64,000 nucleotides of DNA from Pezicula radicicola. Taxonomy: Eukaryota > Ascomycota > Leotiomycetes > Helotiales > Dermateaceae. Location: assembly GCA_003008705.1 (NCBI GenBank), contig PDUO01000063.1, positions 70,548 through 134,547 of the forward strand. Reading direction: 5' to 3'. The position numbers and the translations under genes are program-made. The notes beneath the pieces were generated by a model. The model worked only from the letters and a program-made list of their open reading frames with translations, had not been told where the DNA came from and searched no databases. Positions 30,476 through 35,999 of this stretch are shown here, piece by piece (the first letter of the stretch is position 1; every line of letters begins with the position of its first letter).

Positions 30476-32704
30476 TTACTCGAGATCCGTTAAATCCATA
30501 AACTCTTGATTTGCAACCGGTGTATATGAATCGCCTAGCTCCGCTCTCTTTTTATCTTTTGCGGCATTGCGGCGGACAAAGAGGAGGCGCATTGTCAAGA
30601 GAAGCAGGACAGCGAAACCGTAGAGGACACAGATCTTTATGGGGGTGATATTGTTAGCAAAAAGGTCTTTCTGGAGCGTGTCTGGGAAGGATGACGATGG
30701 TTTAGGATGGTGGAAGGATAGAAATTGAAGGGGAAAGTTACAATTGTTTTAGCTGTTATGTATCTTGGTGCGTTTTTCAGATTGATTATTTGGGGACCGA
30801 TTAGGTTTCCGACGCAGTAGCCGATTACTGGTTGAGGGATAGTTGTGTTAGATTTTGTTTGGATTATAGCCGAAAGGATTGGGATAGAACATACGGTTTA
30901 CAGCGTTTATGACTGATTTTTTAGATTGTCCAGCTACCTGCAATGCGTCATGTAACATTAGCAAAACATTCAATAGTACGGGAAAAGAGGAAAGGTATAA
31001 ACAGTAAGTAGAAAAGGGGAAGTGAAAAGGGATACCATACATTACTAGAAATCATACTCAAAACTAATGTAAACGCTGTACTTGCAGTACTAGTGATATA
31101 AAAAGCAGCAAGTTGACCACCAAGATTGCCTTGTGGTAAGGTAACCATTAGGATAAAACCGAGAATGGGAATCATTAGTGCGAAGATTGACCAGTAGACC
31201 CTGTTCTTGGTTCGGTCTGCTAGATAGCAGATTAAGTTTGTAGATACTACTTGGACTGCTCCTGAGGGTGCGCCGTAGAGGAGGGATTCTTCTTTGTTTA
31301 GTCCGAAACCTAGGTTTTTGGTCAGTGAGATGGGGAAGAATGTGTTTAGGTGGGGTGTTTTGGTGGCTTGCCTTGGAGGATGATGTTTTTGAAGTTTGTT
31401 AGGGCGCCGTTTGGCTATGGTTGGTTAGCTAATATTGAGTTTGAGTCATACGAATATAGACTTACAATATTTGTGGTAATAGAGTAGATGAAAAGTAACC
31501 AAGTCTATACTCAATTAGCAAGCAACATGTATTGCTTAGCAAAAGCCCACTTACAAAAGGATCCTTCAGAGCCTCAACGACCTGATACTTCTTCAAATGC
31601 TTATTCCCTACCCCCTGCTGATTTGACCTAATCCGTTCGATAGCCATAACTTTCTCCTCCTCGGTCAAAAACCATGCTGTGGCAGGACTGTCAGGAACTA
31701 CACAGAAAAAAACAATTCCACTCAAAATTGTCAAGCTCCCAGTAAAAAGGAACATAATTTGCCAGCCAGCCAGAGTCGTATACCCATTCTTTCTGATACC
31801 AGTAGCAATAGCATAAGAAACCACAGCACCTAAAATCTGTCCGAATCCATTACAACAGAACCAGATTCCTGTTCGGAGTCCGTGCTCTTCCTTTCGCCAC
31901 CATTGTGATACTATCATTATGAAGGCTGGTGTCACACTTGATTCGAAAATTCCGAGCAGGATTCGTACAGTCATTAGTCCGCCGAAGTTGGTGCATGCTG
32001 CGTGGATCATTAGGACGCCGCCCCAGAGGACGATCTGAGTGGACAGAAATTTGGCGAGCGGGAGACGTTGGAGTGCGACTATTTTACAAGGGATTATAAG
32101 TTAGGTACTGAAGTAAAGGTGGGACTGGGTTGGACTTACTGTTGGCCGGATATTCTGCTACCAAATAACCGATGTAGAAGGCTGAGCCGAGCCAGTTGTA
32201 CTGTGTTCCAACTAGACCAGTATCTGGGATGATGTTCATAACACTGAAGTTGAAAATTAACCCACAGAACTCAAGATCTATAATCCGGGATTTTATTTAC
32301 CTCGCATAAGAAATAGTCGTCTTATCCAAAAACTGAAGCATGTACAAAACTCCAAGAATCGGCAAGATATATAAATCTACTTATTGTTAGCCTGCAAAGT
32401 ATCACAATCTCCTAGTATCAGAAAAACAAAAGAAAATACGACACTTACCAATTTTCCACAGTAACTTCCTATTCTGCTCCTTCGAATAAACAACCTTCTC
32501 TCTCGCACCTAGAAATTTCAATGCATCATCAACATCCTCAGAGGCGAAAGCTTCCTTTCTATTCTCCTCGTCACTATCAGGACTAATCGACACATTCAAA
32601 TGCTGGCCTTTCTGAATAGATACAGCATCCGTGTCCCCAGAGGCGGTCGCCTTCGAGATCTCACGCTTCTCGTCGGCTATTTCTTGGACTTCTGAAGGTG
32701 CCAT
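30476..32704 (-). CDS. MFS permease, allantoate/ACS family
   Basis: Plasma-membrane symporter of the anion:cation symporter family (Dal5/Tna1 group). It starts at ATG 32704 with an ~85-residue acidic cytosolic leader (MAPSEVQEIADEKREISKAT). The exons then read DLYILPILGVLYMLQFLDKT, WLGSAFYIGYLVAEYP, RILLGIFESSVTPAFIMIVS, QWWRKEEHGLRTGIWFCCNG, LFTGSLTILSGIVFFCVVPD, SSNVAGQSKKSVINAVNLIG, YCVGNLIGPQIINLKNAPRY and a tail ending QEFMDLTDLE at TAA 30476. About eight or nine short introns interrupt it; the last carries a TGCTAAC branch site. I checked the first intron and the last two: they join in frame, so I read the gene as intact. A 3' segment spanning 30641-30750 is intron, not the frameshift it first seems. 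Confidence 0.85.
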
Positions 32705-34196: not shown

Positions 34197-34900
34197 AGTG
34201 AATTGGTTCTCTCATTCTGAAAGCTAACTTTCAGAGTATATGGGTTTCTTTCGCTAGGGCTAGGAAAATTACAATGAGATACCCCACGGGGTATTCACGA
34301 TAGAACGTCGTGCCAACTTCGGAGATGCACTTAATGAATAGTACTATGCACGTGACCTAGAAATGAGATATGTTTTTGGATTTTGAAGTTTTCTCAAGAT
34401 TGGTAATGAATAATAATTCGGTATCTTGAAAATTAATCAAATGTTTCGTCAAAAGAGTATCTAGGTAACTAGAAATATCATCTTACGTAAGGTGCCTTAT
34501 AAGGGCGGTGCTCACTCGTCAAGTGCTGATCCGTTTCTCCACCAATGGACGCGAGCGCTCGCTTAACTTTTTCTGCCCACACCAAAACCAAAACGACATC
34601 AAAGACCCAAAAAGAATTCATTAAATATTATACAAGTAGCTTTTTTGCTCCCTAGAGCCCTTTTCTAGCGTATTTTACTAAATGATAGCAACCCCAAGGA
34701 AAACTAGACCTCAAATCACATTATATCCAAATCTACAAAATGGGCAAAAAAGGCAAAAAAGAGGCTATCCAAGCCATTGCTCAGGGTCCTGAGCTATTAG
34801 ATGTACTCTGTGATGGGGAGTCAAGCCCTCGGATTCATGGTAAGTGGGCCGAGCGTGAAATTGGCTCGCATATTTTAAAACTGAGAAAAAAAAAGATATT
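34197..34900. other. Intergenic stretch
   Basis: No gene is supported. A 72-aa frame from ATG 34740 (MGKKGKKEAIQAIAQG) runs into the antisense of the tRNA and is not accepted. The Pol III terminator of the tRNA is at 34886-34894. Confidence 0.45.
34886..34894 (-). terminator. Pol III terminator (T9) of tRNA-Asp
   Basis: Nine consecutive T on the minus strand, six bases after the discriminator base of the tRNA. Confidence 0.8.
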
Positions 34901-35043
34901 CTCTCTGACGGGGAGTCGAACCCTATGCGTTGTTAGTAAGAGACGTCTGATTTATTAACTGAAGGAAGGAATCATACCCGATCTCCCGCGCTTGAGATTC
35001 TAGGAATGACAAGCGGAAATCATGACCGTTAGACCATCAAAGA
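34901..35043 (-). tRNA. tRNA-Asp(GTC) with a second, spliceosome-type insertion in the T stem
   Basis: The 143-bp gene contains a 16-nt intron at the usual site after position 37 (35006-34991). A further 55-nt segment (34977-34923) splits the T stem after about position 51. Without both, the product is a regular 72-nt tRNA: acceptor UCUUUGA/UCAGAGA, anticodon loop UUGUCAC with GUC, stem UCCGC/GCGGG, T arm CGGGG-UUCGACU-CCCCG and discriminator G73. G10-U25, C38 and G73 are as in yeast tRNA-Asp. A and B boxes are intact and a T9 terminator follows. The 55-nt insertion starts GTATGA, has a perfect TACTAAC and ends ATAG, like the protein-gene introns here. Whether it is removed is unknown; if not, this is a tRNA pseudogene. 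Confidence 0.8.
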
Positions 35044-35999
35044 TGAGAAGTGTTGAACACTTGGTGATGAAGTATCAGAGTGTGTTTGTTGTGTTTGTTG
35101 GAGACTTTGGCCTTACTTGACTTTTTATGCAGGAAGTAGAAAGTTGGGGCCCAAGCTTCACTATCAGATTACTAGCTTGATTAGTAACCAGTTTAACTAA
35201 GCCTAAATGAAGTTAGGATGTAATGTGGATAGATGCGATGAGTCTATTTTCTGAAGTGTACGTTTATACTACCTATGTTTCTAGATATTGCAGTTTAGGC
35301 TTAGCTACAAGAGTACACTACACAATGTACACGTAGGTATTCCTATAAAAATCTTATAATACATTATTATTGTGTTATGCTATCTCTTATTGAGTAGATT
35401 ACCACTTGTAAATTCTAGGTTTTTTCCATTTCACTATATTCAACGCAGAGGACGAATATCCTGTTCTGATCAAGCATCACGTCGTCACTGTAAGATTACG
35501 GGACTGGGCTCGGAGAAAAGTCCGATCTTCTGATACTTCTAAAATTGAATGAAGGTATCCAAAGCTCGCAAGTGTGAAACATTTGTAAATAGCGAAATTT
35601 CGGCGTCAAGTATAGCTAAACCGACGAGCTTCGAATGTGTCGCGACTCGCGAGTTATTTAAAGTTATAGAACAAAAACTCTACAAGGTGCTAAACAGAAC
35701 ACAGATTTTCGGTTCGAAAGTTAGACCATTATAAGTTTAACGTTTCAGTAGTTTGGACATACCTAGGTCACGTAGAGCCGCTAGTTGAAAAAAGCTAGCA
35801 CCACTAGTTCAACCACGGATTCATATTTCGATTAAACCATGGGTACCTCATCTATTTATTGACAAGACTTCGTCAGATCCTAGTACAAACAAAATCGTTA
35901 CGCCTCCCAATCCAATTGATCTTGTCAGTCCACTACTACAACAAAGGTTACAAACCTTTCATCTGTCCATCACCTCTCTCTATTCCAAGGATCCACAAA
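35044..35999. other. Intergenic stretch; start of duplicated segment
   Basis: From about 35553 the sequence aligns with 28321 onward (CTCGCAAGTGTGAAA, CGAATGTGTCGCGACT, CAGATTTTCGGTT), which is the upstream part of the segmental duplication. A first copy of the repeated peptide region (YNKGYKPFICPSPLSIPRIH) is readable at about 35930-35995, just upstream of the chosen start. Confidence 0.6.

Follow-up and report, generated by a model that had tools for sequence, protein, structure and literature searches.

The window analysed here, a stretch of 64,000 nucleotides from one contig of Pezicula radicicola, contains a tRNA-Asp(GTC) gene on the reverse strand (34901..35043) that is interrupted at two places. 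The precursor is 143 nt long, and the mature tRNA is 72 nt. Exon 1 (35007..35043, 37 nt) covers tRNA positions 1-37 and includes the A box TGGTCTAACGG (35036-35026). After position 37 comes an ordinary anticodon-loop intron of 16 nt (34991..35006). Exon 2 (34978..34990, 13 nt) supplies position 38, the 3' half of the anticodon stem, the variable loop, and the CGG of the T stem. The T stem is then broken between positions 51 and 52 by a 55-nt insert (34923..34977), a predicted spliceosomal intron with the sequence GTATGA...TTACTAACAACGCATAG. It carries the branch-site motif TACTAAC (34932..34938), whose likely branch A (34933) lies 10 nt from the end of the insert, and closes with ATAG. Exon 3 (34901..34922, 22 nt) covers positions 52-73 and holds the entire B box GGTTCGACTCC (34922-34912). 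A Pol III-type terminator of nine T (34886..34894) follows 6 nt after the gene. All of these features lie on the reverse strand.

The initial annotation had proposed that excising the 16-nt intron and the 55-nt segment leaves a regular 72-nt tRNA-Asp with a perfect T stem. The joined exons are indeed 72 nt long and form all seven acceptor pairs and all five T-stem pairs. The product is a complete cloverleaf with a GTC anticodon and G73, and the gene has A and B boxes and a T-run terminator. The D stem forms three of four pairs, as it does in the other five interrupted tRNA-Asp copies of the genome. The GTATGA start and the terminal ATAG of the segment were also read correctly, as was the terminator, where AATATC and then nine T follow exon 3. 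The spacing of the branch motif was not: TACTAAC had been placed 9 bases before ATAG, and the actual gap is 5 bases. When introns are permitted, ARAGORN identifies the gene without its T-arm insert as tRNA-Asp(gtc) with a 16-nt intron, whereas in the unspliced window it reports no tRNA. Rfam models at the gathering threshold gave no family matches over the whole window, including group I and group II introns; a length of 55 nt is far below the size of such introns. The architecture of this gene is far beyond chance, since it recurs across 22 genes of the genome.

The 5' leader contains a hairpin, AAGTGT-TCA-ACACTT (35048..35062, reverse strand), whose 6 bp are common to all eight Asp sequences compared, namely six interrupted genes, one insert-free gene, and one fragment. 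All 48 of its 48 cells are paired, and two pairs are changed on both sides, a result reached by 31 of 500 shuffles.

The likeness of the insert to nearby protein-gene introns, which had been pointed out at the start, extends to five introns of an MFS transporter gene and one of a desulfurase-like gene. Part of the MFS gene lies 2.2 kb from the tRNA gene on the same strand (31415..32704). Its introns of 72, 57, 61, 50, and 51 nt start with GTAAGT or GTAAAT, end with TAG or CAG, and contain YTAAY, the distance from its A to the intron end being 10, 13, 22, 10, and 10 nt. Their borders were chosen by motif and open frame, and removal of all five gives a continuous frame of 355 aa (PF07690, 1.6e-30). 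Past these 355 codons, the spliced frame meets several stops, which may reflect further introns or a broken gene. The intron of the desulfurase-like gene, placed through homologous proteins, is 264 nt long (GTATGT...ACTAAC...CAG). A loose composite count of intron motifs in the window is weakly raised (26, against 18.4 +/- 4.5 and a maximum of 28 in 60 shuffles), so the comparison with protein genes rests on these six introns, a small sample. Two proteins encoded in the window are 62-75% identical to named relatives in Bisporella, Lachnellula, Stipitochalara, Leptodontidium, and Coleophoma, which points to a helotialean ascomycete as the likely host.

Interrupted tRNA genes across the genome

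The assembly comprises 61 Mb in 152 contigs and contains at least 22 interrupted tRNA genes, which represent 13 anticodons for eight amino acids and have inserts at 11 positions. The initial annotation had proposed looking for other tRNA-Asp(GTC) genes in the genome. A search with the window gene showed that the insert at 51/52 is present in six of the seven full-length copies found. The seventh, L007, lacks it, and broken pieces are also present. In an alignment of the six Asp inserts (52-60 nt), all keep GTANG, TACTAAC or TACTAAT, and ATAG. The anticodon-loop intron of the other interrupted Asp copies is 16, 19, or 23 nt long.

Three tRNA-Tyr genes are interrupted at the same position, 51/52. 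They were found by a pattern combining the branch motif, AG, and the B box, which gave 37 matches against 36 for the control; nine of the 37 are the Asp and Tyr genes. Because this pattern demands the motif, weight falls on an exon search that does not use it; that search returned five tRNA-Tyr genes, the same three interrupted ones and two without an insert. In the inserts of the three genes (L039, C3:359 kb; L040, C3:493 kb; L045, C61:901 kb), the branch CTAAC lies within a small inverted repeat, AATTTG/CAAATT. The leaders of two of these copies contain TGTTG...CAACA.

Thirteen further interrupted genes came from loci of the Rfam tRNA model and from exon searches. Seven families have inserts in the 5' part of the tRNA: Thr-TGT at 4/5, Leu-CAG at 6/7, Leu-TAA at 7/8, a second type of Lys-TTT at 9/10, Arg-TCT at 10/11, Leu-CAA at 11/12, and Asn-GTT at 15/16, with one gene each except for Lys-TTT, which has two. 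Two Val-TAC genes are interrupted in the variable loop at 47/48, one Arg-ACG and one Arg-TCG gene at 52/53, and one Lys-CTT gene at 61/62. These positions follow our own numbering from measured distances, and Leu-CAG and Leu-CAA were named by reading the anticodon loop. An ordinary anticodon-loop intron is present as well in 18 of the 22 genes. Eleven of the 13 families also include insert-free genes. Val-TAC, with two genes, and the second Lys-TTT type, with two genes and some broken pieces, were seen only in interrupted form in a census that is a lower bound; L009, a different Lys-TTT gene, has no insert.

The number of tRNA genes is a minimum, since 63 of the 2516 candidates from the RF00005 genome search were scored. 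A probe set of nine tRNAs produced five matches, and each of these was to the probe for initiator Met. A scan with a D-arm pattern gave 73 matches against 135 for the reversed control, with two known genes among the matches listed; two further D-arm candidates lie at C2:1366965 and C47:396898. Scans of viral contigs found nothing. The 22 genes do not include truncated or broken copies that lack one half (L008, L108, L109, L123, and short Asp 5' pieces) or two loci with odd inserts in the anticodon arm (L090, L095). L123 (C25:339797, reverse strand), L108, and L109 are copies of Asn and Lys tRNAs that have been truncated. Part of an mRNA-type insert is retained before the D arm of L109, from which it follows that an interrupted gene was itself duplicated.

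Splice signals and exon junctions

The inserts range from 50 to 63 nt (n=22) and share the signals of mRNA introns. Every 5' end fits GTANG, as GTAAGT in nine genes, GTAAGC in five, GTAAGA, GTACGC, and GTACGT in two each, and GTATGA and GTATGT in one each. Every 3' end is AG, preceded by T in 13 genes, C in five, and A in four; AAG is a less favoured acceptor. The branch motif YTRAY occurs in all 22; when the 3'-most match is taken, 10-16 nt separate its A from the end of the insert. The exons on the short side of the inserts are 4 to 26 nt long. For each insert, 1-5 placements of the cut are equivalent. The chance that GT..AG could be read in all 11 families is about 1080/256^11 = 3e-24, an estimate that assumes uniform bases and independence and in which Arg-ACG and Arg-TCG might be a single event. 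As a control, GT..AG was readable in none of 41 ARAGORN-placed anticodon-loop introns in any of seven registers, a set that left out introns shorter than 8 or longer than 60 nt and twelve loci (ten interrupted genes, L090, and L095).

Exact excision restores all seven acceptor pairs and all five T-stem pairs in every one of the 22 genes. After splicing, ARAGORN with introns allowed finds a tRNA in all 22 sequences and reads the expected anticodon in 20 of them; of the 22 unspliced genes it reports one, which it calls wrongly; the Asp2 sequence in this test and in the reused control file began 225 nt too early. The two misread anticodons are those of Leu-CAG and Leu-CAA, and the insert-free sisters of these genes, L082 and L089, are misread likewise. 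Insert-free sisters are available for 18 of the 22 genes (11 families). Over 18-28 bases around the junction, the spliced gene and its sister show no difference in 12 cases, one in three, two in two, and four in one. The predicted joined Asp sequence is identical to the empty site of L007 over 28 bases.

Removal of the inserts and alternative readings

To our knowledge, the handling of nuclear tRNA introns is ascribed solely to the tRNA endonuclease and ligase, and spliceosomal introns are considered nearly exclusive to transcripts made by Pol II. The initial annotation had suggested that a spliceosomal intron entered a gene transcribed by Pol III, and the 21 further genes with the same splice signals strongly support this. 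The inserts are, in our judgement, probably U2-type spliceosomal introns, which would be removed by the ordinary spliceosome, and they would reside in functional tRNA genes, probably transcribed by Pol III. The machine that splices mRNA is thus likely to mature tRNAs as well in this genome. For the window gene, Pol III would start transcription with the help of the A and B boxes, both intact, and continue to the T run. GTATGA, TACTAAC, and ATAG would be recognised by the spliceosome, which would join CGG to GGTTCGA. The Sen tRNA endonuclease would take out the 16-nt anticodon-loop intron, in the likely path after removal of the insert, and end trimming would come last. One small RNA would in this way be processed by two unrelated splicing machines. 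Two stretches encoding the tRNA endonuclease domain (PF01974) are found in the genome.

Each of the 22 inserts leaves the B-box core GTTCGA unsplit, and the last G of the insert completes GGTTCGA in Arg-ACG and Arg-TCG. A run of at least five T occurs within 22 nt downstream of 20 genes; the exceptions are Lys-CTT, whose T run lies further off, and the Asn locus, for which 16 nt downstream are covered. By our pattern, a contiguous A box is absent from five of the 22 precursors (Arg-TCT, two Lys-TTT, Leu-CAA, and Asn), and the A-box match in the Tyr genes is out of register, the region itself being untouched by the insert. In three genes (Thr, Leu-CAG, and Leu-TAA), the insert lies between the gene start and the A box. 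An insert at this place should disturb the choice of start site by Pol III. With no contiguous A box in five genes and an insert before it in three, the choice of start site needs explaining.

These A-box interruptions fit a different transcription route, in which the spliceosome acts on mRNA-like Pol II transcripts of these loci. The tRNA would be released from such transcripts, or the loci would be by-products of longer ones. The spliceosome normally acts on Pol II transcripts, which also favours this route. However, the T runs after 20 of 22 genes and the sparing of the B-box core speak against it, and no open reading frame of at least 90 aa overlaps the window gene. We regard Pol II transcription as improbable, although it is the strongest of the competing explanations and may apply to some of the genes.

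A second possibility, which the initial annotation had also raised, is that the interrupted genes are dead pseudogenes with inert inserts. Truly broken tRNA copies do occur in the genome (L008, L108, L109, and L123), an insert-free Asp gene exists, and 11 of the 13 families have insert-free sisters. The pattern of divergence speaks against decay, however. In pairwise comparisons of the six interrupted Asp copies, the exons differ at 5/1080 positions and the T-arm insert at 134/807, and the anticodon-loop intron (62/249), upstream (168/810), and downstream sequences (235/580) drift as well. For Tyr, exons 1 and 3 differ at 4/183 positions and the insert at 32/162. Gene conversion can also keep tRNA exons alike, which weakens the argument from exon conservation. 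Stem differences that affect both sides remain paired. The Tyr acceptor pair 5-68, which flanks the insert, reads C-G in all three interrupted genes but T-A in both genes that lack the insert. Pair 6-67 of Thr-TGT is T-A, where its sister has A-T, and the Tyr gene at C3:493 kb differs at two pairs of the anticodon stem that stay paired; these pairs do not span the inserts, and their changes speak for function only. Moreover, the splice signals are kept in all 22 inserts, and interrupted copies make up six of the seven full-length Asp genes, both full Val-TAC genes, and both full genes of the second Lys-TTT type. It is therefore very unlikely that these genes are dead.

Removal of the inserts by the tRNA splicing endonuclease, as ectopic bulge-helix-bulge introns like those of red algae, nucleomorphs, and archaea, appears even less credible. 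Both PF01974 stretches could supply the enzyme, and ectopic tRNA introns are removed in this way elsewhere, according to PMC4090602 (section 5). In a simplified test, however, all four central-helix pairs can form at the exact borders in one of the 22 genes, Thr-TGT. When the borders are shifted by up to two bases either way, the other 21 genes reach at most three pairs. The bulge-helix-bulge shape that had been suggested for the window gene does not reach the full four pairs of the central helix in this test. Neither GT..AG ends nor a branch motif would be expected of endonuclease substrates, and GT..AG is found in none of the 41 ordinary introns. A canonical Sen intron is rejected because all 22 inserts sit away from position 37, and an assembly artefact because the same pattern occurs on many contigs with diverged inserts.

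If spliceosomal removal of the inserts from tRNA precursors is correct, the spliceosome may be a general tRNA-maturation machine in this lineage. Such a role would comprise repeated intron gains that spare the B-box core, precursors cut by both spliceosome and endonuclease, and some tRNAs that depend on the spliceosome. The inserts would then form a further class of tRNA intron. We consider this broader reading somewhat favoured, with less assurance than the intron assignment itself. Val-UAC and the second Lys-UUU type would then reach the ribosome only via the spliceosome, and translation capacity would be tied directly to splicing capacity. Pol III transcripts would be able to enter the spliceosome routinely, and the introns would be spliced beside very short exons of 4 to 26 nt. 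Such genes would offer a natural setting in which to test whether coupling to Pol II and a cap are needed for splicing. Annotation would be affected too, in that real genes could escape tRNA finders in genomes of this kind, as ARAGORN correctly called none of the 22 unspliced sequences.

Origin of the inserts and related systems

The occurrence of inserts at 11 positions suggests that introns were gained several times in tRNA genes, and the Asp intron would later have spread through gene duplication. The Asp insert appears clearly to have multiplied together with its gene. Fungal introner-like elements are known for the repeated gain of short spliceosomal introns, a property that the inserts described here would share, and the initial annotation had considered such an element and a search for similar sequences in protein genes. 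A query with 15 of the 22 inserts gave 18 matches, all of them in these tRNA genes and none elsewhere, so that, in contrast to an introner family, the tested inserts have no near copies outside the tRNA genes. The same search missed the diverged relatives Asp1, Asp2, Tyr1, and Tyr3, and only near copies are therefore excluded. A recent introner burst is not seen in these comparisons, and older, diverged copies are possible.

A second tRNA-Asp 3' half follows all six interrupted Asp genes at a distance of about 60-200 nt (blastn E 2e-8 to 0.02). Exon 3 (22 nt) is exact in three of these second halves, has one change in one, is truncated in one, and is decayed in the window, where it lies downstream of the gene on the reverse strand (34803..34830). 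No such half was found after the insert-free Asp copy. Its presence beside the interrupted copies suggests that a duplication or an insertion at GGGAGATCGG accompanied the gain, and the second half may record how the insert arose. At L002, L004, and L006, too, the second tRNA-Asp 3' half lies downstream of the gene. Several fragments of the tRNA-Asp 5' half lie within 0.2-3.3 kb of Asp genes (loci L103, L101, L006, and L007, near Asp2, Asp5, Asp6, and Asp7) and hint at local partial duplications.

We found no earlier report of spliceosomal introns in tRNA genes, of which at least 22 are predicted here, in the titles and abstract beginnings of the full-text search results listed, which mostly do not extend to the subscription literature. 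A close parallel is the U6 snRNA gene, which carries mRNA-type introns in some species, e.g., Schizosaccharomyces pombe. These introns also are short, have GT..AG ends and a branch site, and interrupt a gene for a small non-coding Pol III RNA. U6 belongs to the splicing machine, whereas the genes described here encode tRNAs for eight amino acids and are interrupted at 11 positions. Unlike U6 introns, the tRNA inserts mostly share their gene with an ordinary tRNA intron. Rogers et al. 1993, to judge by its title in the reference list of PMC11782384, deals with introns of the mRNA type in fungal nuclear rRNA genes. These likewise reside in a structural RNA that is not made by Pol II, but the transcript there is a Pol I rRNA rather than a tRNA.

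The review PMC4090602 (section 5) regards eukaryotic tRNA genes with short insertions in the D or T arm as mostly pseudogenes, apart from the ectopic introns of nucleomorphs and red algae. For Cyanidioschyzon merolae and nucleomorphs it describes ectopic introns of nuclear-type tRNA genes that lie in these two arms, as seen here, and notes that several per gene are possible. The Guillardia nucleomorph introns listed there are 3-24 nt long, whereas the inserts of the present genome are 50-63 nt long and carry spliceosomal signals. The C. merolae introns are reported there to rest on a bulge-helix-bulge and the endonuclease, whereas the corresponding helix is possible in one of our 22 genes. Canonical eukaryotic tRNA introns, removed by the Sen endonuclease in the account of the same source, differ in their position after nucleotide 37 and in the lack of GT..AG (0/41 here), and they coexist with the inserts in 18 of the 22 genes.

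Other Pol III-type genes of the genome were also surveyed. All 47 scored copies of 5S rRNA, from 2522 candidates, are 120 nt long and uninterrupted. For U6, 47 of 4167 candidates were scored, and the U6 at C146:17702 (77 bits) has no insert. A diverged U6-like copy, L127 (G000:C3:394362-394523, reverse strand, 49 bits), contains an apparent insert, GTGGGT...ATTAAC...CTTAG. This locus could be a pseudogene, and its insert hints at another affected Pol III-type gene. Finally, the tRNA locus L095 (G000:C109:672923-673077, reverse strand) has an 82-nt insert in the anticodon arm, and the ends of this insert, AAGTCGTTCTGA and TCAGAACGACTT, form a perfect 12-bp stem.
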